The position numbers and the translations under genes are program-made. Shown here one piece after another: positions 16,766 through 34,810 of a stretch of DNA of 64,000 bases. Under the pieces are notes generated by a model. It ran no database searches. It worked only from the letters and a program-made list of their open reading frames with translations, and was not told the DNA's origin. Every line of letters begins with the position of its first letter. The stretch's first letter is position 1. This stretch comes from Rathayibacter caricis DSM 15933 (GTDB lineage Bacteria; Actinomycetota; Actinomycetes; Actinomycetales; Microbacteriaceae): the NCBI RefSeq assembly GCF_003044275.1, contig NZ_PZPL01000001.1, forward strand, positions 1,922,001-1,986,000. The letters are read 5' to 3'.

Positions 16766-16821
16766 CGCTTCTCCAGAAGTTGCGGTGATCGCGCGCGCTT
16801 ACCGCAACTTCTGGAGAAGCG
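16766..16821. repeat. Palindromic repeat family A, copy 1
   Basis: Perfect inverted repeat with 21-bp arms (16766-16786 and 16801-16821; right arm contains ACCGCAACTTCTGGAGAAGC) around a 14-base GC-rich loop. It lies between the methyltransferase stop and the DUF559-type pseudogene; four relatives lie on the other side of that gene. Confidence 0.92.
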
Positions 16822-16910
16822 CGGGGCGGGAGGGTCCTCCACAGGCGCCGGATCCCTCGTCCACCTGTGGAGAGCCGTCAGCGGGCGGCGAGCGGGGCGA
16901 TCCTGTCGCC

Positions 16911-17823
16911 ATGCATCAGAGCGACAACCCTCTCGGAGCCTTCTCCCGTGCGTCCGCGATCGAGAGGGGGTGGACCGAGGATCGCATCCGGCACCGTGCA
17001 CTCTCTCGTCCGTTCCACGGCGTCCGCACCGTGGTCGCGCCGCGCACCCACCTGCAGCGCGCTCAGGCGTACGTCCCTCGCCTGCGGGACGGCCGGTTCT
17101 TCTCGCACCTGACAGCGGCGGTGCTGTACGACGTCCCGCTGCCCACCCTCGCCGCCGAGGACGACCCGGTGCACGTCGCCGTCTTCTCTCCTGCCAGGCC
17201 CCCGCGGTGCCGCGGTGTCGTCGGCCACGCGCTGAACGGCGGGCGCTTCTCCGTGACGACTCGGCGAGGTCTCCCCGTCACGGATGCGGTGTCGACGTGG
17301 CTCCTGCTCGGCACGGTCCTGGCGTACCGGGAGCTCGTCGTCGCGACGGACCACCTCCTGTTCGTCCCCCGCTACCGCAGTGACGACCCCGACCGTCCGT
17401 TCGCGCGTCGCGCCGACCTCGAGGCCGCTCTCGCGGACTTCCACGGTGCCGGCGCGCGCGCTGCGCACTGCTCTCTCGCGAGCGTCGGACGCGGCGGCAT
17501 CCCGTCCCGAGACCGGCCTGCGGTTGATGATCGTCGAAGCGGGCCTTCCGGAGCCCGAGCTGAACGTCCCCATCCGCGTGGGCTCGAAGCTGCTCACCGT
17601 CGGAGATCTGGTGTTCGCCCGATGGAAGGTGCTCGTCGAGTACGACGGGGAGCAGCATCGCACCAGCGACGCGCAGTTCGCCCGGGACCGGGAGCGGCTG
17701 CTCGCCCTCCAGCTGGCCGGGTGGATCATCGTCCCCATCCGTGCCGAGGGCCTGCGCCAGGGGAGCGCCCGGACGATCGCCGAGATCCGCGCGGCGCTCC
17801 ACGCGCACGGCTGGCGCGGCTGA
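16911..17823 (+). pseudogene. DUF559 nuclease-type protein with AbiEi-like N-terminus, frameshifted
   Basis: The reading frame from ATG 16911 encodes the N-terminal part (MHQSDNPLGAFSRASAIERG, then HRALSRPFHGVRTVVAPRTH) and runs intact to ADFHGAGARA. The family signature then continues one frame over, from ARALRTALSRASDAAAS to the stop at 17823. It includes GDLVFARWKVLVEYDGEQH with the E-x-D-G-x-x-H pattern of Vsr/PD-(D/E)XK-like DUF559 nucleases. The frame changes inside an alternating GC run at about 17450-17461, so a one-base gain or two-base loss is likely. If not a sequencing error the gene is dead. It is bracketed by family A palindromes. A homologous, intact gene lies at 33825-34718. 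Confidence 0.8.
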
Positions 17824-17930
17824 GCCCCGGATGCGGTCGGCACGGCGCTGCTCGCACTGCCTCACCGCGACGTCCGGGGAGGAGTGACGGGTCACGACTA
17901 CCGGCAGGCAGGCGACGCCCGCGGCCGCGT

Positions 17931-17984
17931 CGCTTCCGCACAAGTTGCGGGAAGTGCGAGCAATCACCGCAACTTCTGGATAAC
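17931..17984. repeat. Palindromic repeat family A, copy 2
   Basis: Left arm CGCTTCCGCACAAGTTGCGG, right arm ending ACCGCAACTTCTGGATAACG. The right arm matches copy 1 closely; the left arm has drifted. It lies about 110 bases downstream of the DUF559 pseudogene. Confidence 0.85.
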
Positions 17985-18002
17985 GACGATGGGGGTCGGT
18001 CC

Positions 18003-18033
18003 GAAGGAGGAGGAGGAGGAGGAGGAGGAGGGG
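18003..18033 (+). repeat. Polypurine AGG/GGA trinucleotide tract
   Basis: An uninterrupted run of about 30 purines, mostly AGG units (about nine), between family A copies 2 and 3. Such tracts are prone to slippage and can form triplex or G-rich structures. Confidence 0.85.
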
Positions 18034-18148
18034 CTGGGGCGGTGGATGCGCAGACGTTGTGGCATGCGTGAGGAGCTACCGCCGCTCCTCACGTGCGGTA
18101 ATCGATTTCTGCTCCGGGACAAGGAGGTGGCCGCCGGATCCACTTCGA

Positions 18149-18200
18149 TTCCGCAGAAGTTGCGGGAAGCGCGAGGGTTCACCGCAAACTCTGGAGAAGG
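18149..18200. repeat. Palindromic repeat family A, copy 3
   Basis: Left arm TTCCGCAGAAGTTGCGGGAA and right arm ACCGCAAACTCTGGAGAAGG. The right arm shows two changes against copy 1 (AACTTCTGG reads AAACTCTGG). Confidence 0.85.
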
Positions 18201-18233
18201 GCGGGGCTCGGTAGTGCGACGGCGAGTGGGCCT

Positions 18234-18300
18234 GAGATGCAGCGCTTCCGCAGTAGTTGTGGGAAGCGCGAGCGTTCACCGCAACTTCTGGAGAAGCGCG
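18234..18300. repeat. Palindromic repeat family A, copy 4
   Basis: A 67-base unit beginning GAGATGCAGCGCTTCCGCAG and ending CTTCTGGAGAAGCGCG. It is nearly identical to copy 5 (differences at about four positions), which points to a recent tandem-type duplication with 114-base spacing. Confidence 0.9.
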
Positions 18301-18347
18301 TTGGGAGAAGTGCGAGGGGTCTGGGGGGAGGGAAGGTCAGTGGGCTG

Positions 18348-18414
18348 GAGATGCAGCGCTTCCGCAGTAGTTGCGGTAAGCGCGAGCGTTCACCGCAACT
18401 TTTGGAGAAGCGCG
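18348..18414. repeat. Palindromic repeat family A, copy 5
   Basis: A 67-base unit almost identical to copy 4 (TTGTGGGAAG there, TTGCGGTAAG here; CTTCTGG there, CTTTTGG here). It ends about 30 bases before the stop of the LacI-family gene and could also act as its terminator. Confidence 0.9.
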
Positions 18415-18445
18415 GGAGGGTGGGGGGGGGCGGGGGCGGCCGGCG

Positions 18446-19474
18446 TCAGGAGCTGGCGCGGACGACCAGCTCGGTGGGCATCAGGGTGCGGTGCTCCACC
18501 GGGAGGCCCTCGATGCGGGCGACCAGCAGCTCGGCCATGCGGGCGCCCAGCTCGACAGGCATCTGGCGGACGGTGCTCAGGGCGGGCGCGGCGGTGCGGG
18601 CGAACATGTCGTCGTCGAAGCCGACGACGGCGACGTCGTCCGGGATGCGCCGGCCGGCCGCCCGCAGCGCCTCGTACGCGCCGACGGCCATCTGGTCGTT
18701 GGCGGCGAAGAGGCCGTCGATCGAGGGGTCGCGCTCGAGCAGTCGGCGCATCGCCTCGCGGCCGCTGTCGGGCGAGAAGTCGCCCCACTCGACGAGCGAG
18801 TCGTCCAGACCCGCGTCGGCGAGGGTGCGGCGCCAGCCGACGAGCCGGTCGACGCCCGGGGGCATGTCGGCGGGGCCGGCGATGGTGGCGAGGCGGCGGC
18901 GTCCGCGCTCGACGAGGTGCGCGGTCGCGGCGGCCGCCCCCTCCGCGTTGTCGACGTCGACGAAGTACGAGCCGCGCTCCTCCGGCGACAGCGGGCGGCC
19001 GCCGAAGACGATCGGGAGCGAGTTGGCGAGAGCCGCGTAGGAGTGGTCGCCCGAGTGGTGCGAGACGACGAGTGCGCCGTCGACGTTGCCGCCCAGGAGG
19101 TAGCGGCGGGTCTTCTCGCCGTTGGTCTCGGACGCGATCAGCATCGACAGGGTGTAGTCGGTGTCGGCCAGGCGCATCGCCGCGCCCTGCACGATCGAGG
19201 CGAAGAACGGGTCGGCGAAGACGCGCGCCGTCGACTCCGGGACGATCAGCGCGATCGACTGCGTGCGCCGCGACGCCAGCATCCGGGCGGCGCGGTTGGG
19301 CACGTAGTCGAGCTCGCCGATCGCCTTCTCGACCGCGGCGACGATGTCGGCGGCCACCTGCGGGGCGCCGTTGACGACCCGCGAGACGGTCGCGCGCGAC
19401 ACTCCGGCGCGCGCCGCGACCATCTCGAGGGTGGGGGAGCGCCCCGCCTCGCGGCCGATCGATCCGTCGGCCAC
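18446..19474 (-). CDS. LacI-family transcriptional regulator (CebR-like)
   Basis: A 342-residue repressor. The N-terminal helix-turn-helix is PTLEMVAARAGVSRATVSRV (about residues 14-33), with the hinge helix YVPNRAARMLASRRTQSIAL. The sugar-binding domain follows to the end (SLPIVFGGRPL, LFAANDQMAVGAYEALRAAG, VAVVGFDDDMFARTAAPALS). It starts with GTG three bases after the stop of the GH1 beta-glucosidase gene and is probably in one operon with it. A GGAGCGCTC-centred palindrome like the CebR operator lies upstream of that operon and suggests autoregulation released by cellobiose or a similar beta-glucoside. Confidence 0.9.
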   Translation of the reverse strand: MADGSIGREAGRSPTLEMVAARAGVSRATVSRVVNGAPQVAADIVAAVEKAIGELDYVPNRAARMLASRRTQSIALIVPESTARVFADPFFASIVQGAAMRLADTDYTLSMLIASETNGEKTRRYLLGGNVDGALVVSHHSGDHSYAALANSLPIVFGGRPLSPEERGSYFVDVDNAEGAAAATAHLVERGRRRLATIAGPADMPPGVDRLVGWRRTLADAGLDDSLVEWGDFSPDSGREAMRRLLERDPSIDGLFAANDQMAVGAYEALRAAGRRIPDDVAVVGFDDDMFARTAAPALSTVRQMPVELGARMAELLVARIEGLPVEHRTLMPTELVVRASS

Positions 19475-19477
19475 CGG

Positions 19478-20953
19478 TCAGTCCAGGAGCGACGCGGCAG
19501 AGCCGCCGAGCAGGCGCGAGTAGACGAGGCCGGAGTCCTTGATCGTGCGCTCCTGGGACTCGTAGTCGACGCGGACGATGCCGAAGCGCTTCTCGTAGCC
19601 CCACGCCCACTCGTAGTTGTCGAGCAGCGACCAGACGAAGTAGCCGCGGACGTCGGCGCCCTGGTCGATCGCGTCGGCGACCTTCTCGACGTGGTCGAGG
19701 ACGTACTGGGTGCGGTCGACGTCGTGCACGCGGCCGTCCTCGACGACGTCGTCGTACGCGGCTCCGTTCTCGGTGACGTAGAGCGGAGGGAGGTTCTCGT
19801 ACTCCAGGCCCAGGCGGGTGAGCAGGTAGCGCAGTCCGTCGGGGTGCACCTCCCAGTCCATCGCCGTGCGCGGCAGGCCGCGGCTGGGGAAGGTGATGAA
19901 CTCCGACCCCACGAACGGGGAGGCCGTCTCGCGGTCGGTCGCGACGGCGAAGTCCTCGGTGCCGGCGGGGAGCGCGTGACCCGAGACGTTGTCGTCGTGG
20001 TAGTGGTTCACGCCGAGGAAGTCGAGCGGCAGCGAGATGAGGTCGAGGTCGCCGTCGACGATCAGCTCGTCGAGTCCGAGTCCGGCGACGTCCTCGAGCA
20101 GGTCCTCGGGGTACTCGCCGCGCAGCAGCGGGTCGAGGAAGATGCGGTTCTGCAGCGCGTCGAAGCGGCGGGCGGCGTCGAGGTCGACCTCGTCCTCGGG
20201 GTCGTCGGGGACGGCGTTGGAGAGGTTGAGCGTGATGCCGAGGTTCTGCGCGCCGAGCTGACGCAGCGTCGAGACGGCGAGGCCGTGCGCGAGGTGGGTG
20301 TGGTGGACCGCCGCGAGCGCGGCCTGCGGCGAGATCACTCCGGGGGCGTGCACGCCCGCACCGTAGGAGAGCAGCGTCGAGCAGAACGGCTCGTTGAACG
20401 TCGTCCAGTGCTGGACGCGGTCGCCGAGGCTCTCGTAGACGGCCTCGGCGTAGTCGCGGAAGCGCTCGGCGGTGTCGCGGTTCGTCCAGCCGCCGGTCTC
20501 CTCCACGGCCTGCGGGAGGTCCCAGTGGTAGAGCGTCAGCCAGGGCAGGATCCCGGCGCCCAGCAGCTCGTCGACCAGGCGCGAGTAGAAGTCGAGTCCC
20601 TCGGCGTTGACGGAGCGGTCGCCCGGCTTCACCCGCGACCAGCTGACCGAGAAGCGGTACGAGCCCAGGCCCAGCTCCTTCATCAGCTGCACGTCGGCGG
20701 GCATGCGGTGGTAGTGGTCGACGGCGACCTCGGGGGTGTCGCCCTTCGCGACGGCGCCGGGGACGCGCGAGAACGCATCCCAGATGCTGTCCTCCTTGCC
20801 GCCCTCGTGGCCGGCGCCCTCGATCTGGGCGGCGGCCGTCGCGGAGCCCCACAGGAATCCGACCGGCCAGTCGCGCACGGCGAGGCGCTCGGCCCGGAGG
20901 TTCTGCTCAGCGAGGCTCGGCGTCTCGGTGGCGGGGGTGCGGGCAACGCTCAT
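19478..20953 (-). CDS. GH1 beta-glucosidase
   Basis: A 491-residue cytoplasmic glycoside hydrolase family 1 TIM barrel with no signal peptide. The acid/base glutamate is E188 in TFNEP and the nucleophile is E395 in YVTENGAAYDD. GFLWGSATAAAQIEGA near the N-terminus, FSVSWSRVKP and YFVWSLLDNYEWAWGYEKRF are all family hallmarks. It hydrolyses beta-linked disaccharides such as cellobiose after uptake. AAGGAG precedes the ATG. It forms an operon with the LacI-type regulator gene. Exact preference (glucoside, fucoside, mannoside) is not readable from sequence. Confidence 0.95.
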   Translation of the reverse strand: MSVARTPATETPSLAEQNLRAERLAVRDWPVGFLWGSATAAAQIEGAGHEGGKEDSIWDAFSRVPGAVAKGDTPEVAVDHYHRMPADVQLMKELGLGSYRFSVSWSRVKPGDRSVNAEGLDFYSRLVDELLGAGILPWLTLYHWDLPQAVEETGGWTNRDTAERFRDYAEAVYESLGDRVQHWTTFNEPFCSTLLSYGAGVHAPGVISPQAALAAVHHTHLAHGLAVSTLRQLGAQNLGITLNLSNAVPDDPEDEVDLDAARRFDALQNRIFLDPLLRGEYPEDLLEDVAGLGLDELIVDGDLDLISLPLDFLGVNHYHDDNVSGHALPAGTEDFAVATDRETASPFVGSEFITFPSRGLPRTAMDWEVHPDGLRYLLTRLGLEYENLPPLYVTENGAAYDDVVEDGRVHDVDRTQYVLDHVEKVADAIDQGADVRGYFVWSLLDNYEWAWGYEKRFGIVRVDYESQERTIKDSGLVYSRLLGGSAASLLD

Positions 20954-20994
20954 GGGCGACTCCTTCGGCTGGTACGGCCATCCTACGACCTTCG

Positions 20995-21008
20995 ATGGAG
21001 CGCTCTCT
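20995..21008. promoter_or_regulatory. CebR-like palindromic operator
   Basis: ATGGAGCGCTCTCT matches 10 of 14 bases of the actinobacterial CebR site TGGGAGCGCTCCCA, centred on GAGCGCTC. It is 42-55 bases upstream of the beta-glucosidase start. A similar site lies before the sugar importer operon at 44086-44099. Confidence 0.55.
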
Positions 21009-21058
21009 CGCCGCCGTACCGGCGCCGCGCCGAGATCTCGGGGCGGCGCCGGAGCGGT

Positions 21059-22885
21059 TCAGCTCCGCCGGTTGTCGGGCGCGGTCGGAGTCGTGCGGAC
21101 GGAGTCGGTCCGCACGTCGGGCTCGATGCTGCCGGCGGCGAGATCCGCGCCCGCCCGGGCGGCGAGCTGCGGGTCGGTCCGGCGGAGCTCCTCGGCGCGC
21201 TCCTCGTCGGCGGCGAGGTCGTGCGCCTCCTGCATCGCCGACTTCGCGCGCAGCGGCGGCGTCTTGAGGAACCACGACAGCACGAAGGCGAGCAGGACCA
21301 CTCCGAGGGCGACCGAGAAGACGGTCACGGTGGCGTCGTTGAAGCCGGTCAGGAACGGCGCCGACAGCGCGCGGTCGGCGGTGTTCAGGAACGAGGTGTC
21401 GCCGTCGAGAGCCGAGCCGATCGCCGAAGTGTCCTGCGACTGCAGGAGGCCGAGGATCTTCTCGTTCGCGGGATCGGCCAGGACCGCCGGGTCGGCGAGA
21501 GCGGCCTGCAGATCGGAGGCGATCGCCGGCTTCTGGAAGGCGCCCGCGATCGTGTCGGGGATGCGGGTGAACAGCACCGAGAAGATCACCGCGGTGCCCA
21601 GGGTGCCGCCGATCTGCCGGAAGAACGTCGAGGCGCTCGTCGCGACTCCCATGTTCGCCACGTCGACCGAGTTCTGCGAGGCGAGGGTGAGCGTCTGCAT
21701 CATCTGGCCGAGTCCGAGTCCCAGCAGCAGCATGCCGCCCATCATGAACAGGACCGGCTTGTCGATCGAGACGAAGGTGAAATAGAAGAACGCGGCCGAC
21801 ATCAGGAACGTGCCGACGATGGGGAACGCCCGGTAGCGCCCGGTGCGCGAGATGATCTGGCCCGACACGATCGAGGCGATCATGAGGCCGAGGATCATCG
21901 GGAGCATCAGGAAGCCCGACTCCGTGGGAGTCGCTCCGTTCACCAGCTGCAGGTAGAGCGGGATCGTCATCATGCCGCCGAACATGCCGAAGCCGACGAG
22001 GACGCCCAGCACGGTGGCCATCGAGAAGGTCGGCGAGCGGAAGAGCTTCAGCGGGATCAGCGCGTCGTCGCCCATCATCCGCTCGGCCGCGATGAAGCCG
22101 ACGATCCCCAGGACGCCGACGATGTAGCAGACCCACGCGATCGGGGAGCTCCAGCCCCACTCGCGCCCCTGCTCCGCGATCAGCAGGAGGGGGCCGGCCG
22201 CGACGATGACGAGGGCCGCGCCCCACCAGTCGATGCGGATCGAGCGGGTGCCCGCGGGCTTGGGCAGGTGCAGGAAGCGGAGCACGATGACGAGCGCCAC
22301 GGCGCCGATCGGCAGGTTGATCAGGAACACCCAGCGCCAGCCGGTGATGAACAGGATCTCGGGTGTGCCGGCGAGCAGGCCGCCGATCAGCGGGCCGACG
22401 ACGCTCGAGATGCCGAAGACGGCGAGGAAGTAGCCCTGGTACTTGGCGCGCTCGCGCGGCGGGAGGATGTCGCCCATGACGGTCAGGGCGAGCGACATGA
22501 GGCCGCCGGCGCCCAGTCCCTGCACGGCGCGGAAGCCGGCGAGGCCGAGCATCGAGGTCGCGAACCCGGCCAGGAGGGAGCCGATCAGGAACAGGACGAT
22601 CGCGATCAGGTAGAGCGGGCGCCGGCCGAAGATGTCGGAGAGCTTGCCGTAGATCGGGGTCGCGATGGTCGAGACGATCAGGTAGGCGGTGGTGACCCAG
22701 GCCTGCTGCGACAGTCCGTCGAGGTCGTCGGCGATCGTGCGCATCGAGGTGCCCACGATCGTCTGGTCGAGCGAGGACAGGAACATCCCCGCCATCAGTC
22801 CGAAGATCACGAAGAGGATCTGGCGGTGCGACATGACCGCGCCGGAGGGCGTCGGTGCGGTCGGTCGTGAAGCGGAGTCGGCCAT
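21059..22885 (-). CDS. MFS multidrug exporter, DHA2 (14-TM) type
   Basis: A 608-residue membrane protein. The first half has the DHA2 hallmarks FLSSLDQTIVGTSMRTIADD (motif D1 region, residues about 36-55), YGKLSDIFGRRPLYL (motif A) and the antiporter motif C GISSVVGPLIGGLL. About 14 hydrophobic segments are visible. A roughly 90-residue extracytoplasmic-type loop (ADPAVLADPANEKILG ... GDTSFLNTADRALS) precedes the last helix, and the C-terminal tail is charged. It probably exports drugs or metabolites with protons. No adjacent regulator gene is present, yet a 23-bp palindrome stands upstream. Confidence 0.92.
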   Translation of the reverse strand: MADSASRPTAPTPSGAVMSHRQILFVIFGLMAGMFLSSLDQTIVGTSMRTIADDLDGLSQQAWVTTAYLIVSTIATPIYGKLSDIFGRRPLYLIAIVLFLIGSLLAGFATSMLGLAGFRAVQGLGAGGLMSLALTVMGDILPPRERAKYQGYFLAVFGISSVVGPLIGGLLAGTPEILFITGWRWVFLINLPIGAVALVIVLRFLHLPKPAGTRSIRIDWWGAALVIVAAGPLLLIAEQGREWGWSSPIAWVCYIVGVLGIVGFIAAERMMGDDALIPLKLFRSPTFSMATVLGVLVGFGMFGGMMTIPLYLQLVNGATPTESGFLMLPMILGLMIASIVSGQIISRTGRYRAFPIVGTFLMSAAFFYFTFVSIDKPVLFMMGGMLLLGLGLGQMMQTLTLASQNSVDVANMGVATSASTFFRQIGGTLGTAVIFSVLFTRIPDTIAGAFQKPAIASDLQAALADPAVLADPANEKILGLLQSQDTSAIGSALDGDTSFLNTADRALSAPFLTGFNDATVTVFSVALGVVLLAFVLSWFLKTPPLRAKSAMQEAHDLAADEERAEELRRTDPQLAARAGADLAAGSIEPDVRTDSVRTTPTAPDNRRS

Positions 22886-22935
22886 GGGTGTCCCCTCGTC
22901 AGGCGGGCGCCTTCAGGGCACGGCGGACCGCCGCG

Positions 22936-22958
22936 AACGTTGCGTGCTGCGCAAAGTT
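22936..22958. promoter_or_regulatory. 23-bp palindrome upstream of exporter, TetR-type operator candidate
   Basis: Half-sites AACGTTGCG (22936-22944) and CGCAAAGTT (22950-22958) are complementary at 8 of 9 positions across a 5-base centre. The site is 51-73 bases upstream of the exporter start. Its form suits a TetR-family dimer, but no such gene adjoins. Confidence 0.5.
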
Positions 22959-23029
22959 ACACCGGGAGCCGACGCGCCTCCAGAGCCCGCGGCGAGCCTG
23001 AACGGGATCTCAGGAGGCGCGCGCGGGCG

Positions 23030-24574: not shown

Positions 24575-24671
24575 GGGGTCCTTTCGTCGCCGGGATCGTC
24601 GGTGCGGAGCCGAGGGGGCGGACTCGCGCGATCGCCGGTGCTGTCACCCACGCTAGGGGAGTCGAGCAGGT

Positions 24672-24690: not shown

Positions 24691-24751
24691 GAGGCGGGCC
24701 CGAAGATCCGGTCGCCGGGCGGTCGTCGGGAGACCTCGACGGACCCGCGTC

Positions 24752-24757: not shown

Positions 24758-24763
24758 CGGAGG

Positions 24764-27268: not shown

Positions 27269-27272
27269 ACGA

Positions 27273-27310
27273 CGGAGGGCCGCCACCGCCTGAGCGGTGA
27301 CGGCCCTCCG
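27273..27310. terminator. Bidirectional hairpin terminator
   Basis: A 17-bp stem with one mismatch (CGGAGGGCCGCCACCGC with GCGGTGACGGCCCTCCG) and a 4-base loop, between the convergent amidase and CsbD genes. Confidence 0.85.
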
Positions 27311-27323
27311 GGGCTCGAGAGAG

Positions 27324-27497
27324 TCAGTTCTTGAAGACGTCCTTGACGTCCTCGCCGACCTTCTTGGTGTGGGCCTTCGTCTGATCGGCCTGGCCCTCGG
27401 CCTCGAGGCGCTCGTTGTCGGTCAGCTTGCCGACCGCCTCCTTCGCCTTTCCGACCAGGTTCTCAGCGGCGTTGCGGATCTTGTCGTCAGCACCCAT
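27324..27497 (-). CDS. CsbD family stress-response protein
   Basis: A 57-residue protein matching CsbD in size and pattern: MGADDKIRNAAENLVGKAKE, then AVGKLTDNERLEAEGQADQ, ending KVGEDVKDVFKN. CsbD proteins are small, hydrophilic, helical and induced by general stress in many bacteria; their molecular role is unsettled. GGGAGC-type sequence lies before the ATG. The gene follows the Asp23 operon in the same direction after an 86-base gap, so it may be read from that operon or from its own promoter. Confidence 0.9.
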   Translation of the reverse strand: MGADDKIRNAAENLVGKAKEAVGKLTDNERLEAEGQADQTKAHTKKVGEDVKDVFKN

Positions 27498-27583
27498 CAG
27501 GGGCTCCCTTCGTTCTGTTCTCGGATCCTCCGGCGAAGGCCGCTGGAGGGGTGGTGCAGCGAGCGCCGGAGGCGCTGCGCGGG

Positions 27584-28210
27584 TCAGGAGACGCGGTCCT
27601 CTTTCGAGAAGCCGGCGCGGGCGCTCGAGGCGACCTCGAGCACGACCGGCAGGCGGGCGCCGAGGAGCCGGTCGAGGCTCTCGACCTCCTCGTGGACCGC
27701 GTCGACCACGGTGCGGGGCGAGACGCCCGACCGGGGGAGGACGCGCACCTTCAGCGCGGTCGTCGAGCCGTGCTCGTACGCCGACACCGTCACGTCCAGC
27801 AGGTCGCCGCGGCCGGCGAGCGCGTTCTCGAGGACGTCCTCGGCGAAGCCCGTGCCGAACTCCACGGCACCGGCGGGGCCGCCGTCGGCCGACGACTCGT
27901 CGCGCAGGACCGTGCCGGTGCGGCCACGGCCGTGGGCGAGGGCGAGCACCAGGGCGAGCACGATGCCCACCAGGCACACGCCGACGATCGCGTAGAGCGG
28001 CCAGAGGACGGCGGCATCGCTCCAGGCGGTGCCGTCCTCGGGCGAGATCCGCGAGACGAGCGACGCCCCCTGGTCGGATCCGAACGCCGAGACGGCGTCG
28101 CGCACGGGCTGCGACACGGCGACCAGGACGAGCCCTGCGGTGACGGCCGCGAGCACGAGGCCCACCACGAGCAGGACGAGGCGGTTGAGGAAGCGGTTGC
28201 TCGTGGTCAT
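27584..28210 (-). CDS. Membrane protein of Asp23 operon, AmaP-like
   Basis: A 208-residue protein with two membrane helices near the N-terminus (about 9-31, LVLLVVGLVLAAVTAGLVLV, and about 70-92, WPLYAIVGVCLVGIVLALVL). A cytoplasmic Asp23-like alpha/beta part follows (about 115-200; VTVSAYEHGSTTALKVRVLP). The two-helix hairpin plus C-terminal domain resembles AmaP, the membrane anchor of Asp23 in firmicutes. It is last of five tightly packed genes and overlaps its upstream neighbour by one base (TGATG). Role as anchor is inferred from layout and position. Confidence 0.72.
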   Translation of the reverse strand: MTTSNRFLNRLVLLVVGLVLAAVTAGLVLVAVSQPVRDAVSAFGSDQGASLVSRISPEDGTAWSDAAVLWPLYAIVGVCLVGIVLALVLALAHGRGRTGTVLRDESSADGGPAGAVEFGTGFAEDVLENALAGRGDLLDVTVSAYEHGSTTALKVRVLPRSGVSPRTVVDAVHEEVESLDRLLGARLPVVLEVASSARAGFSKEDRVS

Positions 28211-28809
28211 CAGATCCTCCCGGAGTCGGCGATGCGGACGGAGGCGCGGGTGGCGGGCTGCGGAGCGATGCGCTCCAGCTCCTCGTCGAGGGCCTTCTGC
28301 ACCGCGTCGCGATCGACGCCGATGCCGGAGGCGGGCGTGATCGAGACGACCGCGGTGCGGCGGCCGATCGAGGCGCTGGTGTCCTCGCGGCGCGACCGCG
28401 CGATCGTCCGGGCCGAGCGGGCGAGCGCCGAGGCGATCACTCCGTCGTCGACCACGACCGCGAGGCGGTCGTCGGCGATCGTGTGCCGAGCGCGAGCACC
28501 GGGGGCGAGGGCCAGGACGAGCAGGATCAGCGCGAGCAGACCCGTGCCGACGGCGATGCCGATGAGCGCGCCGGTGGCGAGCTCCCCGACTCCGACGAGC
28601 GCGGCGAGCAGATCGGACGGCGCGATCAGCAGCGGAGTCGCGCCGAGGACGGCGAGCACCGCCTCGGTGCCGACGTACGCCGCGATCAGCGCGATCACGG
28701 TGAGGACCACGATCTCGGCGGCCGAGCGCGACCGGTGGGTCTCGCGCCGCAGGAAGCGGCCGTACCGGGCGTCGGGGGCGGCGTCGCGGGGGGACGATGC
28801 GGGGCTCAT
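28210..28809 (-). CDS. DUF6286-type membrane protein of Asp23 operon
   Basis: A 199-residue protein with a basic N-terminus and two hydrophobic helices (about 35-57, VVLTVIALIAAYVGTEAVLA, and about 75-100). A C-terminal soluble domain follows (about 110-199; DDRLAVVVDDGVIASALARS and RRTAVVSITPASGIGVDRDA). That domain again looks like an Asp23-type fold. The gene overlaps the preceding gene by ATGA and the following one by one base. Function unknown; the operon suggests it anchors or regulates Asp23-like scaffolds at the membrane. Confidence 0.72.
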   Translation of the reverse strand: MSPASSPRDAAPDARYGRFLRRETHRSRSAAEIVVLTVIALIAAYVGTEAVLAVLGATPLLIAPSDLLAALVGVGELATGALIGIAVGTGLLALILLVLALAPGARARHTIADDRLAVVVDDGVIASALARSARTIARSRREDTSASIGRRTAVVSITPASGIGVDRDAVQKALDEELERIAPQPATRASVRIADSGRI

Positions 28810-29177
28810 GCGACTCTCCTCGTGCTACGGGTCCGGGTGCCGGTGACGCGCACGTCGACGCGGGTGACGGTGCGGCCGGTGAGCGCCTGCATCCGTGCGG
28901 CGATGCGGGCGCGGTCGCGGTGGAGGCGGTCGAGCAGGTTCCCGCCGTCGGCTCCGGGAGCCGAGACGGGATCGGGATCGACGACGACCGGAGTGGTGAC
29001 GGCGAGCGCGAGGCCGCCGCGGTCGTCCGACAGGCGGACGCGGATCGCCGAGACCTCCACGCCGAGCTCCTCGTGCACGACGGCGAGCGCGGCGCGCTCG
29101 ATCGAGCGGACGCTGACGGTGACGGTCCCCGCCACCGGCGCACCGGTGGCGGGCCGCGACTGCAGGTCGGTGGTCAT
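28806..29177 (-). CDS. Asp23/Gls24-like protein (123 aa)
   Basis: A 123-residue soluble protein (VAGTVTVSVRSIERAALAVV, then VSAIRVRLSDDRGGLALAVT, ending GRTVTRVDVRVTGTR). The alternating strand/helix pattern resembles a shortened Asp23 domain. It lies nine bases after the DUF2273-type gene and overlaps the next gene by ATGA, so it is part of the same transcript. No enzymatic motif was seen. Assignment rests on context as much as on sequence. Confidence 0.65.
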   Translation of the reverse strand: MTTDLQSRPATGAPVAGTVTVSVRSIERAALAVVHEELGVEVSAIRVRLSDDRGGLALAVTTPVVVDPDPVSAPGADGGNLLDRLHRDRARIAARMQALTGRTVTRVDVRVTGTRTRSTRRVA

Positions 29178-29186
29178 GCGGTGCTC

Positions 29187-29408
29187 CTAGCGGGAGGTCG
29201 TGCGGCCGCGGAACACGTCCACGAGGCTGCGCACGTCGAGCGATCCGTCGAGCATCCGTGCGATCAGGACGCCCAGCGCCATGAAGACGGCGGTGAGGAC
29301 GAAGCCCCAGAAGCCGAAGAGCAGGGCGGCGAACGCGAGGATCGCGCCGACGACCACGCCGAGGACGGTGCTGCGGTTCGAGGCGGCGGGGGGAGTGGGG
29401 ACGCTCAT
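29187..29408 (-). CDS. Small DUF2273-type membrane protein
   Basis: A 73-residue protein with one long or two closely spaced hydrophobic helices (about 14-50; VVVGAILAFAALLFGFWGFV) and a short charged C-terminus ending DVFRGRTTSR. Proteins of this size and shape regularly accompany Asp23 genes. Its ATG overlaps the stop of the Asp23 gene (ATGA). It may tether the scaffold to the membrane. Confidence 0.75.
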   Translation of the reverse strand: MSVPTPPAASNRSTVLGVVVGAILAFAALLFGFWGFVLTAVFMALGVLIARMLDGSLDVRSLVDVFRGRTTSR

Positions 29409-29872
29409 CGGACGCGGCTCTCGGTCTCGGCGGAGTCGTCGTCCCCGGGGATGTGCACGTCGACGATCGCGACGTTGATCTCGGCGACAGCCATGCCCAC
29501 GAGCTCGGTGATGGCCTCGGCGACGGCGTCGCGCACGCGGTCGGCGACGGTCTGCATCGGCACCGGGTAGGCGACGACGAGGGTGACGTCGACCGCGACC
29601 TGGGTCTCGCCGACCTCGACGCGCACGCCCTGGCCGTGGTCGTTGGCGCCGACGGCGGAGCGGATCGCTCCGAACGCGCGGGCCGCGTTGTTGCCCAGGG
29701 CGAAGACGCCGGGGACCTCGCGGGCCGCGATGCCGGCGACCTTTGCGATCACGGCGTCGTCGATGACCGTGCGGCCCTGGGCGGTGCCGGAGACGGCGCC
29801 TCCGAGGCTCGTCACGGTGTCGACGGAGGTGTCGACGCGGGGGGTGGAGGGGGTGCGAGTGCTGTCGCTCAT
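29405..29872 (-). CDS. Asp23/Gls24 family envelope stress protein
   Basis: A 155-residue Asp23 domain protein, first gene of the minus-strand operon. Family features are TVIDDAVIAKVAGIAAREVP (about 34-53), GVFALGNNAARAF, VEVGETQVAVDVTLVVAYPV and VAEAITELVGMAVAEINVAI followed by VDVHIP. Asp23 proteins form abundant membrane-proximal scaffolds linked to cell-wall stress. The operon is divergent from a second one led by an ECF sigma factor that also encodes Asp23-like proteins, so the two sets may be controlled together. Confidence 0.92.
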   Translation of the reverse strand: MSDSTRTPSTPRVDTSVDTVTSLGGAVSGTAQGRTVIDDAVIAKVAGIAAREVPGVFALGNNAARAFGAIRSAVGANDHGQGVRVEVGETQVAVDVTLVVAYPVPMQTVADRVRDAVAEAITELVGMAVAEINVAIVDVHIPGDDDSAETESRVR

Positions 29873-30016
29873 GATGTCTCCTGTACGTGTCGTCGGCCGC
29901 GGGAGCGCGGTCGGGGATCGGGGGCCCGGTCGGATCGACTTCGCAGTCTTGCTCGTCCGGGCTGTGCTTACATGAGTCAGACGGAGCCCGGAGGGCGATC
30001 GTCACGGTCCGGATCG

Positions 30017-30026
30017 GGAAATTTCC
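30017..30026. promoter_or_regulatory. GGAAATTTCC palindrome between divergent Asp23 operons
   Basis: A perfect 10-base palindrome in the 212-base gap. It presents GGAAA, the core of many ECF -35 elements, on both strands. No clear -10 partner was fixed, so a role as shared ECF promoter is only a suggestion. Confidence 0.3.
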
Positions 30027-30084
30027 TGACCGTTGCCTGATAGTCGTCCGGCACGGTGCCGACGGTCGGAGGAGAGAGGGCGCC

Positions 30085-30633
30085 ATGCCGGGTCTGGAGT
30101 CGGCGAGCGATGCGCTCCTCGCCGAGCGCTCGGCCGAGGGTGACGTCCGGGCCTTCGAGGTCCTGGTCAAGCGGCACCAGTCGATCCTCCGCGCGTACGC
30201 GTGGCGGCTGACGGGCTCGCAGGCCGATGCCTCCGACGCCGTGCAGAACGCGCTCATCACCGTGTGGGCCCAGCTGCCCCAGCTGAAGGAGCCGGCGAGC
30301 GTGCGCAGCTGGATGATGCGGATCGTCAGCCGATCCAGCGTCGACCTGATGCGCCAGCGCCGCCCCGCCGACGACGTCGACGCCGTCGAGCACCCCGCCG
30401 CGAAGGAGCCGGGGCCCTTCGAGGCCGCCGAGCGCTCCGACGCGATGAAGGCGCTCGCCGCAGCACTGGCCGAACTGCCGGAGTCCCAGCGCCAGTGCTG
30501 GCTGCTCCGCGAGGTGGGCGGCGAGTCCTACGGTGAGATCGCCGAGCACCTCGGACTCACTCCGACCGCCGTGCGCGGCAAGCTCGCGCGAGCCCGCGAG
30601 TCGCTCGTCGTGGCGATGGAGGACTGGCGATGA
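30085..30633 (+). CDS. ECF-type RNA polymerase sigma factor
   Basis: A 182-residue sigma-70 family protein. Region 2 covers about residues 20-90 (FEVLVKRHQSILRAYAWRLT, DAVQNALITVWAQLPQLKEP), and region 4 about 120-178 (LPESQRQCWLLREVGGESYG, IAEHLGLTPTAVRGKLARAR). Region 3 is absent, as in ECF sigmas. The ATG at 30085 has GGAGAGAGG upstream. It overlaps by ATGA with a gene in the usual anti-sigma position that instead carries an Asp23 domain. It likely directs envelope-stress genes including this locus. Confidence 0.9.
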   Translation: MPGLESASDALLAERSAEGDVRAFEVLVKRHQSILRAYAWRLTGSQADASDAVQNALITVWAQLPQLKEPASVRSWMMRIVSRSSVDLMRQRRPADDVDAVEHPAAKEPGPFEAAERSDAMKALAAALAELPESQRQCWLLREVGGESYGEIAEHLGLTPTAVRGKLARARESLVVAMEDWR

Positions 30634-31328
30634 AGGACGTCCCCGATGAAGGAGCAGGCCCCATGAACGCCGACGACAGGCCGGAGGTGCCGGGGGACCG
30701 GCCGGCCGGACCCGAGCGCAGCGACGCGCTCGAGGTCGTGCCCGTCGAGGCGGCGCCGCTCGACGGCGCAGCCGAGGAGCGCACGATCGACGACCTCAGC
30801 GACTACCTCGACCGTGGACGCCTCCCCTACGACCCCGCGATCGAGGAGTCGCCCGAGCACCGCAGGACGCTCCAGGCGCTCGAGCGGGTGCGCGCTCTGT
30901 CGGGCGCGTTGATCGACGACGACGCCGAGCGCCTGCCCGCTCCGGAGGAGAGCTGGTTCGGCTCGATCCTCACCCAGGTGCGGCGGGAGGCGCGCGCCGG
31001 TCGCGACATCCCGCTGGCGAGCCCCGAACCGGACGTCGAGCTGACGATCACCGAGGGCGCGGTGCGCGGCCTCGTCCGGGAGGCGGGCGACAGCGTCCCC
31101 GGCGTGCTGGTCGGCCGCTGCCGGCTGGTCGGCGACGTCGGCGACCCCGAGGCCGAGATCGCGATCGAGGTCACGATCTCGGTGTTCTGGGGCGTGCCGA
31201 TCGCCGACGCGGCCCAGCAGGTGCGCGAGCGGATCCACTCGCGACTGCTCACCCAGACCGAGCTGAGCATCTCGACGATCGACGTCCGCGTCGAGGACGT
31301 CTACATCCCCGGAACGGAGGGGTCGTGA
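30630..31328 (+). CDS. Asp23-domain protein with anti-sigma-like N-terminus
   Basis: A 232-residue soluble protein. About 50 low-complexity acidic residues are followed by a helical segment, DDLSDYLDRGRLPYDPAIEE then SPEHRRTLQALERVRALSGA (about 53-92). This resembles the sigma-binding helices of zinc anti-sigma factors, but without the HxxxCxxC zinc ligands. A full Asp23 domain follows (about 130-232; VELTITEGAVRGLVREAGDS ... VEVTISVFWGVPIADAAQQV). It overlaps the sigma gene by ATGA. I infer a cytoplasmic anti-sigma or sensor role; the sequence directly shows only the Asp23 domain and the position. Confidence 0.75.
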   Translation: MKDVPDEGAGPMNADDRPEVPGDRPAGPERSDALEVVPVEAAPLDGAAEERTIDDLSDYLDRGRLPYDPAIEESPEHRRTLQALERVRALSGALIDDDAERLPAPEESWFGSILTQVRREARAGRDIPLASPEPDVELTITEGAVRGLVREAGDSVPGVLVGRCRLVGDVGDPEAEIAIEVTISVFWGVPIADAAQQVRERIHSRLLTQTELSISTIDVRVEDVYIPGTEGS

Positions 31329-31720
31329 GCACGGCGGGCGGCGTGGTCGCCCCGCAGTCGGAGAGCCCCTCGTCCGTGCTCACCGCGCTCGTGCGCGCCG
31401 TTCCCGGAGTGGCGATGGTCGTGCCGGCGCGGGCCGAGGCACGCGACGTGCTCGCCCACGCGGCGACGGCGCTCGCTCCCTCGCCGATCCCGCTGCTCCC
31501 CGGCTCCCTGGGCACCGCCTCGGGCGGCACGCTCGCGGAGCCGGTGCTGGTGCGGATAGCGCCCGACGGGATCGTCGTCTCGATCGACATCGGAGTGGCT
31601 GCCGACGCGTCCGCACCGGGCGTGGCCCGGGCCGTGGGCGCCGTGGCGCGGGAGTGGTGCGAGCAGGAGCACCCGGAGCGCCGCGCGCGGATCGCGGTGC
31701 GGATCGCGGCGGTCGACTAG
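31325..31720 (+). CDS. Asp23-like protein, degenerate (131 aa)
   Basis: A 131-residue protein starting with GTG that overlaps the preceding stop (GTGA). The C-terminal half (VRIAPDGIVVSIDIGVAADA, then PGVARAVGAVAREW and ARIAVRIAAVD) follows the strand-helix-strand pattern of Asp23 domains. The N-terminal half (SVLTALVRAVPGVAMVVPAR) would supply the first helix and strand. No membrane segment. Third gene of the sigma factor operon. Assignment as an Asp23 relative is tentative. Confidence 0.65.
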   Translation: MSTAGGVVAPQSESPSSVLTALVRAVPGVAMVVPARAEARDVLAHAATALAPSPIPLLPGSLGTASGGTLAEPVLVRIAPDGIVVSIDIGVAADASAPGVARAVGAVAREWCEQEHPERRARIAVRIAAVD

Positions 31721-31780
31721 ACCCGGGGATCGCCGTCGTCGGCTCGGGTCGGCGATCGCTCGGCCAGGACCGGCGCGCGC

Positions 31781-32710
31781 TCAGCCCTGATCGGCGAGGA
31801 ACGACTCCGTCTCGGCGGCGGTCGGGGCCGAGACGGCCGCACCCGCGCGCGTGACCGAGACGGCCGCCGCCGCGCCGGCCCATCGGACCAGGGGCAGCAG
31901 CGCCTCCGGACCGGCGAGGTCGACGGCGCTCGCCGCCAACCGGGCCGAGAAGGCGCCGCAGAAGGTGTCGCCGGCTCCCGTCGTGTCGACGGCGCGGACG
32001 CGGAACGCAGGGGCGTGCAGCGGTTCGCGACCGCGCACGGCGACGACCACTCCGTCGGAGCCGAGCGTGACGAGGACGAGCGGCACGAGCGCCGTCAGCG
32101 CCGCGGCCAGGGCGGTGTCGTCCGCCGCCTCGAGGCCGCGCGCGCTCCCGAGCTCCCGTGCCTCGTGCTCGTTGACGATCAGCACGTCGAGTGCCGCGAG
32201 CAGCTCGTCCGGCAGCGGCCCGATCGGTGCGGCGTTCAGGATCGTGACGACCCCGGCGGCGCGCGCCGCGCGGGCGGCGGCGAGCACCGTCTCCTGCGGC
32301 ACCTCGAGCTGGAGCAGCAGAGCGGAGGCGCCCGCGACGACCTCCTCCTCCGCGCCGGTCAGCCCCGTGAACGCGGCGTTCGCTCCGGAGTCGACGACGA
32401 TCGCGTTCTCGCCCGCGTCGTCGACCGTGATCTGCGCGGTGCCCGTCCGCTGCTCGACGCGGCGGGCGTGCAGCTCGAGCGGCTCGCGGGAGAGGACTCC
32501 GGCGAGCTCGTCGCCCGCCGCATCGCGCCCGAGGCTCGTGACGAACGCGGTCCCCGCGGCGGTCCGGGCCGCGGCCACCGCCTGGTTCAGGCCCTTGCCG
32601 CCCGGGAACGTGCGGTAGTCCGAAGCCAGCACCGTCTCACCGGGAGCCGGGATGCGGGCGACGCGGTGGACGTGGTCGAGGTTGGCGCTTCCGAGGACGA
32701 CGAGGGGCAT
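31781..32710 (-). CDS. rbsK: Ribokinase (PfkB family)
   Basis: A 309-residue PfkB-family sugar kinase closest to ribokinase. It opens MPLVVLGSANLDHVHRVARI and has the ribose-binding PGGKGLNQAVAAAR (about 36-49), NEHEARELG in the middle and the anion-hole/catalytic DTTGAGDTFCGAF (about 243-255). It phosphorylates D-ribose at O5 with ATP in the cytoplasm. No ribose transporter adjoins, so another pentose or nucleoside-derived ribose is possible. TAACGT eight bases before the ATG suggests a near-leaderless transcript. It is divergent from the aldo/keto reductase. Confidence 0.9.
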   Translation of the reverse strand: MPLVVLGSANLDHVHRVARIPAPGETVLASDYRTFPGGKGLNQAVAAARTAAGTAFVTSLGRDAAGDELAGVLSREPLELHARRVEQRTGTAQITVDDAGENAIVVDSGANAAFTGLTGAEEEVVAGASALLLQLEVPQETVLAAARAARAAGVVTILNAAPIGPLPDELLAALDVLIVNEHEARELGSARGLEAADDTALAAALTALVPLVLVTLGSDGVVVAVRGREPLHAPAFRVRAVDTTGAGDTFCGAFSARLAASAVDLAGPEALLPLVRWAGAAAAVSVTRAGAAVSAPTAAETESFLADQG

Positions 32711-32717
32711 GCCCTCG

Positions 32718-32723
32718 ACGTTA
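32718..32723 (-). promoter_or_regulatory. -10 hexamer TAACGT, leaderless geometry
   Basis: On the minus strand TAACGT ends eight bases before the A of the ATG at 32710. It faces the TACGGT hexamer of the divergent aldo/keto reductase gene across 39 bases. Confidence 0.55.
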
Positions 32724-32762
32724 GGGCACGCGCAAGGGGCTCCGCGCGACGCGGCCCGCGCC

Positions 32763-32768
32763 TACGGT
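32763..32768 (+). promoter_or_regulatory. -10 hexamer TACGGT, leaderless geometry
   Basis: TACGGT ends exactly seven bases before the A of the ATG at 32775. Confidence 0.6.
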
Positions 32769-32774
32769 GGAGGC

Positions 32775-33761
32775 ATGGACACTCGAACTCTCGGACGCAC
32801 AGGTGCGCCCGTCTCCGTCGTCGGCCTCGGAACCTGGCAGCTCGGTGCCGACTGGGGTGACGTCGCCGAGAACGACGCCCTCGCGATCCTCGACGCCGCC
32901 GTGGAGTCGGGGGTGACCCTTTTCGACACCGCCGACGTGTACGGCGACGGCCGCAGCGAGCGCACGATCGGCTCCTACCTCGCCGCGCATCCCGACTCCG
33001 GGGTGTTCGTCGCGACCAAGATGGGCCGCCGCGTCGACCAGGTGCCCGAGAACTACGTGCTCGACAACTTCCGCGCCTGGACCGACCGCTCGCGCAAGAA
33101 CCTCGGCGTCGACACCCTCGACCTCGTGCAGCTGCACTGCCCGCCCACCTCCGTCTACTCCGACGACGTCGTCTTCGACGCGCTCGACACCCTCGTCTCC
33201 GAGGGCGCGATCGCGAACTACGGCGTCTCGGTCGAGCGCACGGAGGAGGCGCTCACCGCGATCGCGCGGCCGAACGTCGCGAGCGTGCAGATCATCCTGA
33301 ACGCGTTCCGCCTGAAGCCGCTCGACGCGGTGCTGCCCGCCGCCCGCGAAGCCGGAGTGGGGATCCTCGCCCGCGTGCCGCTCGCCTCGGGACTGCTGAG
33401 CGGCCGGTACACGACCGAGACGACCTTCGCGGCCGACGACCACCGCAACTACAACCGCGACGGCTCCGCGTTCGATGTCGGCGAGACGTTCTCGGGCGTC
33501 GACTTCGCCACCGGAGTCGAGGCCGCGCAGGAGTTCTCGCGCCTCGCCGCTGACCACGGCCTCGCCCCCGCGGCCGCCGCGCTCGCCTGGATCATCCAGC
33601 AGGACGGCGTCACCTCGGTGATCCCCGGCGCCCGCTCGCCCGAGCAGGCCCGCGCGAACGCGACCGCCGCCGACGCGGCTCCGCTCGGCCCCGCGTTCAT
33701 GGAGGCCGTCAACGCCCTCTACGACACCCACTTCCGCCCCGCCGTCCACCCCCGCTGGTAG
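32775..33761 (+). CDS. Aldo/keto reductase
   Basis: A 328-residue NADPH-dependent TIM-barrel oxidoreductase. Catalytic residues are visible as D and Y in FDTADVYGDG (about 51-60), K in VATKMGRR (about 80-87) and H in LVQLHCPPTS (about 115-124). The C-terminal GVTSVIPGARSPEQARANAT is the cofactor-phosphate site. It resembles the YajO/YhdN-like group acting on small carbonyls or sugars. It is divergently transcribed from ribokinase and convergent with a DUF559 nuclease gene, whose first palindrome begins eleven bases after its stop. Confidence 0.9.
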   Translation: MDTRTLGRTGAPVSVVGLGTWQLGADWGDVAENDALAILDAAVESGVTLFDTADVYGDGRSERTIGSYLAAHPDSGVFVATKMGRRVDQVPENYVLDNFRAWTDRSRKNLGVDTLDLVQLHCPPTSVYSDDVVFDALDTLVSEGAIANYGVSVERTEEALTAIARPNVASVQIILNAFRLKPLDAVLPAAREAGVGILARVPLASGLLSGRYTTETTFAADDHRNYNRDGSAFDVGETFSGVDFATGVEAAQEFSRLAADHGLAPAAAALAWIIQQDGVTSVIPGARSPEQARANATAADAAPLGPAFMEAVNALYDTHFRPAVHPRW

Positions 33762-33771
33762 CCCGATCGCC

Positions 33772-33826
33772 GAGGTGCCCGAGAACGTCGCTGTTCCTGA
33801 GGGAAGCGAGCATTCTCGGGCACCTC
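33772..33826. repeat. Palindromic repeat family B, copy 1
   Basis: Outer arms GAGGTGCCCGAGAAC (33772-33786) and TTCTCGGGCACCTC (33813-33826), with a partly paired interior. The last two bases lie inside the stop codon of the DUF559 gene at 33825-33827. The same outer arms reappear on the other side of that gene at 34756-34810. Confidence 0.92.
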
Positions 33827-34718
33827 AGGGCTGAAGGGCCTGCTTGACCTGCGCGACGACGGAGGAGAGATCGGCGAGGTCGTCGCCGGTGAGCTCGATC
33901 ACGTGCCAGCCGGCAGCGCGGAGTCGCCCCATCCGGGCGCGGTCCCTGCGCCACCGGCCGCGCTCGACCCGGTGATAGTCGCCGTGGTACTCGATGACCA
34001 CCCTCGCCCAGGCGATGCAGAGATCGACGCGGCCGAGGAACGCACCGTCCGCTGACCTGATCTCGACGTTCGCCTCCACTCCGCGGACCCCCGCTCGCAC
34101 CAGCGCGACGCGGACGATCGACTCCGGCCGCGATTCCGCCCGCGCGTCGAGGAGGTCGAGGGCGAGACGGAGCAGCCCGACTCCGCGGCGCCCCGGGGAG
34201 GAGGCGACCGCGGCGGTCAGTCCCTCACGAGTCACGAGCCTCTCGCGGAGGAGGAAGTCGCCGACCGCGACGAGATCCCCCAGGTCGAGCAGCGCGCCGA
34301 GATCGCACCAGGTGCGTGCCGGGCTCGTGAGGGCGCCGCGCCTGCCCTGGACGACGTCGCCCGGCCGGAAGGTCAGCTTGCGCCCGGCTGTGCCGGCTGC
34401 GTGCGGAGCGCGGCGGGGAGCCTCCACCGCGATGTCGAGATCGGACCGGTGCTCCCACTCGGGAGGCAACGGCGCTCCCCACAACAGCGCGGCGGTCGGC
34501 CCGCAGACCACGGTGCCCGGTCCGAGGCGGTGGAGGAGTGCGGCGCACCGGTCGCCGAGAGTGGACGACGGCACGGCCGTTCGGATCCCGTAGGTCGGAC
34601 GCGCGAGCCTGGGCCCGCGCAGCACCCCGGGCGTCACCCCCGCGGCTCTCGCCTCCGCGACGCTGAACGCTCCTCGCGGCCATTGCTGCTCCTGCACCCC
34701 GACACTCTGGCGCTCCAT
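33825..34718 (-). CDS. DUF559 nuclease-type protein with AbiEi-like N-terminus (intact)
   Basis: A 297-residue protein. The N-terminal part (RGAFSVAEARAAGVTPGVLR ... VVCGPTAALLWGAPLP) resembles the winged-helix region of AbiEi-type antitoxins. The C-terminal part is a Vsr/PD-(D/E)XK-like DUF559 domain with E199, D232 (GRVDLCIAWA), E243 and H249 (VVIEYHGDYH), and ends GWHVIELTGDDLADL. All residues expected for metal-dependent DNA cleavage are present. It is bracketed by two palindromes with identical 14-bp outer arms. A frameshifted relative sits at 16911-17823, also among palindromes. Function in the cell is not established for this family. ATG 34718 is a few bases from a weak CACGCT hexamer. 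Confidence 0.8.
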   Translation of the reverse strand: MERQSVGVQEQQWPRGAFSVAEARAAGVTPGVLRGPRLARPTYGIRTAVPSSTLGDRCAALLHRLGPGTVVCGPTAALLWGAPLPPEWEHRSDLDIAVEAPRRAPHAAGTAGRKLTFRPGDVVQGRRGALTSPARTWCDLGALLDLGDLVAVGDFLLRERLVTREGLTAAVASSPGRRGVGLLRLALDLLDARAESRPESIVRVALVRAGVRGVEANVEIRSADGAFLGRVDLCIAWARVVIEYHGDYHRVERGRWRRDRARMGRLRAAGWHVIELTGDDLADLSSVVAQVKQALQP

Positions 34719-34755
34719 CGGCTAGCGTGCGCCGTTCTGTCCACAGGGGGCAGAC

Positions 34756-34810
34756 GAGGTGCCCGAGAATGCATCGGATCCGTCGGATCCAGTGCGTTCT
34801 CGGGCACCTC
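34756..34810. repeat. Palindromic repeat family B, copy 2
   Basis: Outer arms GAGGTGCCCGAGAA (34756-34769) and TTCTCGGGCACCTC (34797-34810) are identical to copy 1. The interior differs and contains its own stem (CGGATCCG with CGGATCC). It lies between the start of the DUF559 gene and the end of the phosphoglucomutase gene. Confidence 0.92.

Follow-up and report, generated by a model that had tools for sequence, protein, structure and literature searches.

We analysed a 64,000-nucleotide stretch of the Rathayibacter caricis DSM 15933 genome (contig NZ_PZPL01000001.1, positions 1,922,001 to 1,986,000), hereafter called the window, in which two genes for DUF559-type nucleases each lie between inverted repeats of their own kind (Table 1). 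The initial annotation had placed the first gene (nuclease A) among palindromes of a family A and the second (nuclease B) between palindromes of a family B, and had taken the first gene to be frameshifted and the second to be intact; the bracketing and the coordinates of both families were borne out, and so was the state of the two genes. Nuclease B matched the DUF559 profile with 22.0 bits in an unbroken frame of 297 amino acids. The profile pieces of nuclease A fall in two frames, indicating a frameshift, and its 3′ piece corresponds to DUF559. A relative of nuclease A in the sister genome G004 is intact (93.6% nucleotide identity, a 376-amino-acid open frame with no stops). The window's genome (G000) holds a second broken nuclease relative (L148, G000:C1:3864232-3864973), close to the end of the main contig.

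The A1 palindrome (28-nt arms, 93% complementarity, score 22.0) and the right B palindrome (score 18.9) are the two top-scoring palindromes of the window. Copies 2-5 of family A are weaker than A1, and the left B palindrome is the weaker of the B copies (score 11.3). As originally described, the 14-bp outer arms of the two B palindromes are identical, GAGGTGCCCGAGAA, and the left copy enters the stop codon of nuclease B. Five palindromes in the window score at least 15, versus none in 11 of 12 dinucleotide shuffles and one in the remaining shuffle. Strong palindromes (scores 15-16.4) are also present away from both nuclease genes, at 4871-4914, 6190-6228 and 8154-8223. Eight DUF559 matches were found in the window's genome; a palindrome scoring at least 14 within 1.5 kb of the domain match was present at both window genes and at none of the six others. 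Thus, bracketing is not general to DUF559 genes. The palindromes had been called private to their nucleases, which is correct inasmuch as each nuclease has its own palindrome and incorrect inasmuch as further copies exist elsewhere in the genome: family A arms gave 53 matches genome-wide (up to 3 mismatches) versus 19 for the reversed control, and family B has a single further copy, at C1:1370545-1370600.

Table 1. Nuclease genes, palindromes and leader element in the window (positions are those of the window)
Feature	Position	Strand	Remarks
A1 palindrome	16766..16821	unstranded	5′ side of nuclease A
Nuclease A	16911..17823	+	architecture of nuclease B by profile; broken by frameshift
Family A palindrome, copy 2	about 17932..17983	unstranded	degenerate; 3′ side of nuclease A
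Family A palindrome, copy 3	about 18151..18203	unstranded	degenerate
Family A palindrome, copy 4	about 18247..18297	unstranded	degenerate
Family A palindrome, copy 5	about 18363..18414	unstranded	
Left B palindrome	33772..33826	unstranded	3′ side of nuclease B, overlapping its stop codon
Nuclease B	33825..34718	-	AbiEi-like N-terminal part and Vsr/DUF559 nuclease; 297 aa, intact
CCTGTGGACAG leader element	34737..34747	-	variant of the CTGTGGANAA motif, not an exact match; between 5′ palindrome and nuclease B start codon
Right B palindrome	34756..34810 (also delimited as 34755..34811)	unstranded	5′ side of nuclease B

Protein searches retrieved nuclease relatives from all 15 Rathayibacter genomes. 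Flanks of 500 bp to the left and right of 71 nuclease places were scanned, a matched pair of palindromes being defined by a local similarity of at least 15, a cut-off that was chosen after the results of the genus flank scan were known. Matches longer than 700 bp (n = 60, including five broken or split genes) were treated as full-length; at the 11 shorter places, flanks were measured from the domain edge. Control genes of 600-1300 bp were called with a simple gene finder of our own. Matched pairs of ca. 57-bp palindromes were found at 35 of 60 nucleases versus 1 of 144 control genes (Fisher's test, 5e-22), and all 35 pairs among the 71 places fall within the 60 long matches. At a score of at least 11, palindromes flank 37 of the long nucleases on both sides and 11 on a single side, and the other 12 have none. 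Among the 144 control genes, which came from twenty 20-kb stretches, palindromes occurred on at least one side of 31 and on both sides of 2, and a matched pair occurred at 1. In a test blind to palindromes, left and right 350-bp flanks were similar (at least 20) at 40 of 60 nucleases versus 2 of 149 control genes. The genus contains 12 close relatives of nuclease B (53-73% identity); together with it they make 13 orthologues, all of which are bracketed on both sides.

The association extends beyond the genus. In a family sample of one genome from each of 40 genera, 28 genomes had matches at E ≤ 1e-20; 64 long matches from 23 of these genomes were scanned, with 7 more long matches and the weaker ones left out. 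A palindrome was present on some side of 49 of the 64 genes and on both sides of 23, and 20 genes, in 14 of the 23 genomes, had a matched pair. The corresponding numbers for 212 control genes from four of the scanned genera were 35, 1 and 0 (20/64 versus 0/212 matched pairs; Fisher's test, 1.5e-14). A class sample of 118 genomes yielded matches at E ≤ 1e-25 in 68 of them, and the flanks of 29 loci (the best place per genome) were scanned. Among 23 loci of other orders, 20 had a palindrome, 9 of them on both sides and 9 as matched pairs; a matched pair was also present at 1 of 3 loci from other families of the order and at 1 of 3 from the same family. Dinucleotide shuffles of the window and the control genes in genus and family reject chance placement, and the nuclease/palindrome association is close to certain. 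One branch of DUF559 genes (L105-L107, L109-L111, L119, L120 and L123) has no matched palindromes and may differ in function.

Different nucleases of a genome have different palindromes, which agrees with what had been suggested from the window. The two flanks of one nuclease are alike in 35 of 37 cases (median 33), versus 0 of 218 comparisons between flanks of different nucleases of the same genome (median 6), and among nuclease B orthologues the mean left-right similarity is 37.5 versus 21.1 across species. The palindromes span 57 bp, with 23-bp arms and an 11-bp spacer. The 5′ palindrome lies at a median distance of 113 bp ahead of the start of the nuclease match, and the 3′ copy at a median of 33 bp past the match. 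In 29 of the 30 distinct copies of a 59-bp family, GCGAGATGCCACTT (one divergent L138 copy was left out), the outer arm and an asymmetric core, CGACACGCCG, are invariant and the inner stem covaries, with 28 cells changed on both sides versus 11.5 in shuffles; the outer arms are set by the search pattern, so that just the inner stem and core are informative. Template switching could be an alternative origin of this covariation.

Between the 5′ palindrome and the start codon there is a leader with a strand-specific motif, CTGTGGANAA, an exact match to which was found at 49 of 124 nucleases versus 0 of 294 control genes, the count having been made on the same genes whose k-mer table suggested the motif. 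In the window, the leader places are 34737-34747 and 16836-16874. The motif is also present in the palindrome-less members L109, L110 and L148. Its reverse resembles a DnaA box.

The distribution of scattered palindrome copies tracks that of the cognate nuclease, though not perfectly. Of the GGGTTG family, the two carrier genomes contain 29 and 83 copies, and the 13 other genomes contain none. In the 59-bp family, exact copies number 38, 80, 59, 81 and 84 in five carrier genomes and 0, 1, 9, 0, 0 and 0 in six genomes where the cognate nuclease was not seen, carriers having been assigned from general relative and flank comparisons without a separate search by that nuclease. Arms of the B type occur at extra places in several carriers and at none in the two genomes without a B orthologue; carrier G014, whose flanks have a variant arm, has no extra place either. 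Copy numbers for the three families include flanking copies, and their reversed-pattern controls all gave 0. For 14 units from four other genera, 21 matches were found in 200-kb samples of their own genomes versus 3 in about 1 Mb of others, and 10 of the 14 had a palindrome match in the own genome. All 34 rows of family-4 copies in the loci analysed (three rows repeat one copy) lie outside predicted genes; the 3′ end of a predicted gene is at most 40 bp away from 30 of them, and two are in divergent, promoter-bearing gaps. The initial annotation had named two outcomes that would speak against a nuclease/palindrome element, namely palindromes no commoner near DUF559 genes than near other genes and palindromes equally common in genomes lacking the cognate gene. 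The idea survived both, the first through the genus and family scans and the second through the GGGTTG counts and, less cleanly, the 59-bp counts. A further family of palindromes, CCGGCTCGCGGAA / CGGCTCGTGGAAAC, with copies at L166 8768 and in the right flank of L152, recurs in several genomes, is clustered in some and adjoins a remote DUF559 gene in G007.

The immediate neighbours of the window nucleases are genes for an aldo/keto reductase, phosphoglucomutase, a DNA methylase and LacI. Nuclease A is adjoined by a DNA N4/N6 methylase gene (15883-16746), and the same neighbour is present in 11 of 11 nuclease A loci compared. The gap between the reductase and phosphoglucomutase genes holds a B unit in 12 genomes, in the direction of the reductase in 8 and opposite to it in 4. 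G010 and G008 have the same B unit (91%) inverted between flanks that are 96-97% identical, and the inversion ends within the palindromes. In G000 and G004, flanks of 96-97% identity surround B nuclease genes that are 72% identical, while the nucleases at locus A are 93.6% identical; because of this difference, we infer from the comparison that the B unit was probably replaced as a cassette, the alternative being fast divergence. In G009 the same gap has no nuclease; at least three palindromes there share their arm exactly with the palindromes of nuclease L143 of the same genome, and one more is of a related type. In G012 the gap contains a single palindrome, whose subtype is close to the one belonging to nuclease L141 of that genome. 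B-type units of Plantibacter and G009 have no adjoining reductase or phosphoglucomutase gene. Collinearity of the Plantibacter loci L329 and L331 (93.5%) sets in 13 bp ahead of the left palindrome, and their left neighbours differ; in L330 a two-gene block that is missing from both lies between two palindromes. The inversion, the cassette difference and these two Plantibacter rearrangements all have their ends at the palindromes. A repeat with GTATCGAGATCCACC...CTCGATACGCCC arms follows the aldo/keto reductase gene in L094 (G008) and L287 (G005); it is unlike the nuclease palindromes described here.

The protein was modelled as an AbiEi-like part, which makes up the N-terminal two thirds, followed by a nuclease of the Vsr/I-Bth0305I type. 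VIA-align matched the N-terminal part structurally to AbiEi; Foldseek returned no fold for it among the best 50 matches listed. The C-terminal part is predicted to adopt a Vsr-like PD-(D/E)XK fold with conserved acidic residues, and these residues together with a histidine are invariant across 22 and across 55 sequences. Ratios of nonsynonymous to synonymous substitution rates were 0.10-0.25 in 11 pairs, and the nuclease is therefore under purifying selection. Passages of PMC3710099 name MTES_1575 as a novel Vsr-type domain and contain no mention of palindromes. A known defence protein was rejected as an identity, since PADLOC gave just weak AbiEi matches, in two of four nucleases. Plasmid or phage cargo was rejected as well: three nuclease queries (L107, from the palindrome-less branch, and two bracketed nucleases) matched 1, 2 and 4 of 72,556 plasmid records, from Arthrobacter and Nonomuraea and all typed non-mobilizable, and each matched 0 of 50,697 phage records.

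We consider it probable that palindrome, leader, AbiEi/Vsr nuclease and second palindrome form one unit that resembles a REPtron, with an enzyme unrelated to the transposases (RAYTs) associated with repetitive extragenic palindromes (REPs), and that operates as follows. Two protein molecules would bind the two ca. 23-bp arms through the AbiEi-like winged-helix part and so place two Vsr-type nuclease domains on the palindrome. Rare cutting or nicking there would promote recombination or copying repair, by which the two flanks would stay matched, copies would arise in gaps downstream of genes and the unit would occasionally be inverted, swapped or re-sited. Inheritance of the unit is mostly in place, and palindromes can persist after their nuclease is broken, as at locus A. 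Recognition, cutting and spread of the palindromes by the nuclease are putative. It seems to us an evenly balanced question whether this is an actinomycete class-wide element, in which an AbiEi-type operator-binding domain was joined to a Vsr nuclease and its own operator palindrome became the target that is cut, duplicated and spread; it would then be an independent counterpart of the RAYT/REP pair with many co-evolved specificities.

Several observations weigh against this interpretation. The structural match to AbiEi has a root-mean-square deviation of 5.5 Å. No matched pair was found at 25 of the 60 genus genes, 12 of which have no palindrome scoring at least 11 on either side; 6 of the 25 nonetheless have similar flanks. 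Active-site residues are unchanged in the four aligned members of the palindrome-less branch. Just 11 of 26 nuclease B flanks find their best or tied best match in their own partner, because close species share a palindrome. The 59-bp family is present in 0, 1, 2 and 5 exact copies in carriers G004, G005, G012 and G014 (G004 holds variant arms of this palindrome), and the nine copies noted above for a genome where the cognate nuclease was not seen are those of G003. At the one solo site that was followed, four close genomes are occupied at an identical position and others have a remnant or gap; no clean empty site with a target duplication was revealed. No inversion was found at locus A (11 relatives) or group 4 (9 genomes); both are collinear in the genomes compared, and frequent movement of every unit was therefore rejected. 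The rearrangements that end at palindromes stand without a background rate for breakpoints in ordinary gaps.

A pure operator role is the strongest rival, and we regard it as unlikely. According to it, the palindromes are autoregulatory operators of the AbiEi type, the copies dispersed through the genome form a regulon or serve as decoys, and the nuclease has another target, for example invading DNA. Passages of PMC7319586 describe AbiEi and Rv2827c as repressors of their own promoters that act through 23-bp inverted repeats; our protein model has an AbiEi-like part, one palindrome lies 5′ of the gene at the distance given above and could simply be its operator, and two of the family-4 copies are in promoter-bearing gaps. 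The rival thus accounts for the 5′ palindrome and for its size. It does not account for the matched copy 3′ of the gene, for the great number of family-4 rows just past gene ends, or for rearrangements ending at palindromes, which are not expected of plain operators.

Action at the RNA level, with the palindromes as transcribed hairpins that restrain the nuclease or are processed by it, is very improbable. Slightly less probable still is that nuclease bracketing is a by-product, the palindromes being ordinary terminators or members of a REP family that another enzyme moves: copies do lie mostly just past stop codons, often in convergent gaps, but bracketing is specific to nuclease genes and different for each nuclease, with genome-specific scattering; the enzyme of known REPs was not detected, and their tags are not enriched. 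The Y1/RAYT transposase (PF01797) was found in 0 of 15 genus genomes by a search that was positive in 5 of 14 control genomes, and RAYT-driven REPs were rejected for this reason. REPs with GTAG or CGTC tags were rejected since these tags are at chance level, 1 and 13 of 110 as compared to 2.8% and 11.8% of random places.

Passages of PMC3733652 treat REP-like palindromes that lack a dedicated mobilising enzyme as an open question. DUF559 is a family whose function is unknown, and the genomes studied here hold several copies each. The pairing supplies a partner to the palindromes and to the family alike. There are 55 matched nuclease/palindrome pairs (35 from the genus and 20 from the family) in which the presumed site is legible from the flanks, and therefore recognition, cleavage and spread are directly testable. 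If cutting is true, the units would be convergent with REPtrons and would supply compact nucleases with sites of ca. 57 bp. The data suggest an undescribed kind of enzyme-and-repeat element in actinobacteria. No report of this association was found among the open-access papers listed by our searches; subscription papers were mostly outside their reach, so that its absence is not proven. In the RepRanger paper (PMC12306157), neither RAYT nor nuclease turned up in a search of the text.

Three known systems can be compared with these units. The N-terminal two thirds model like the antitoxin fold of the AbiE type IV toxin-antitoxin system, and by analogy the 23-bp arms with an 11-bp spacer resemble in size the repeats that passages of PMC7319586 give as 23-3-23 for AbiEi and 23-13-23 for Rv2827c. 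Unlike in AbiE, a nuclease is fused here and palindromes are present on both sides of the gene and scattered; the DUF1814 nucleotidyltransferase toxin of AbiE was not found among the immediate neighbours of the two window genes. I-Bth0305I, a homing endonuclease of the EDxHD/Vsr type, has a target of nearly 60 bp (passages of PMC3943268). The gene described here lies between two whole presumed sites instead of interrupting one, and these sites are palindromes located in gaps between genes and not a conserved coding gene. The closest likeness is to the REPtron, in which, according to parts of PMC8266576, a mostly single-copy, housekeeping-like TnpA-REP gene lies beside REPs that are spread genome-wide. 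As far as parts of PMC8266576 and PMC3116915 describe it, the REPtron shares with our units a gene bordered by palindromes (both window genes, and matched pairs at the genus and family relatives counted above), tandem clusters, co-evolution of enzyme and palindrome, and a single-copy, mostly vertically inherited gene; cognate copies scattered in intergenic DNA are a further likeness to the REPtron as partly documented, with just one such copy for the window's family B. The palindromes here span ca. 57 bp, whereas REPs have 20-50 nt in the portions of the literature covered, and GTAG or CGTC tags are not above chance. The enzyme is an AbiEi/Vsr-type nuclease (DUF559) and not an HUH (Y1) tyrosine transposase. 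Thus, the unit would work like a REPtron but, by its enzyme and its tags, is not a member of that class.

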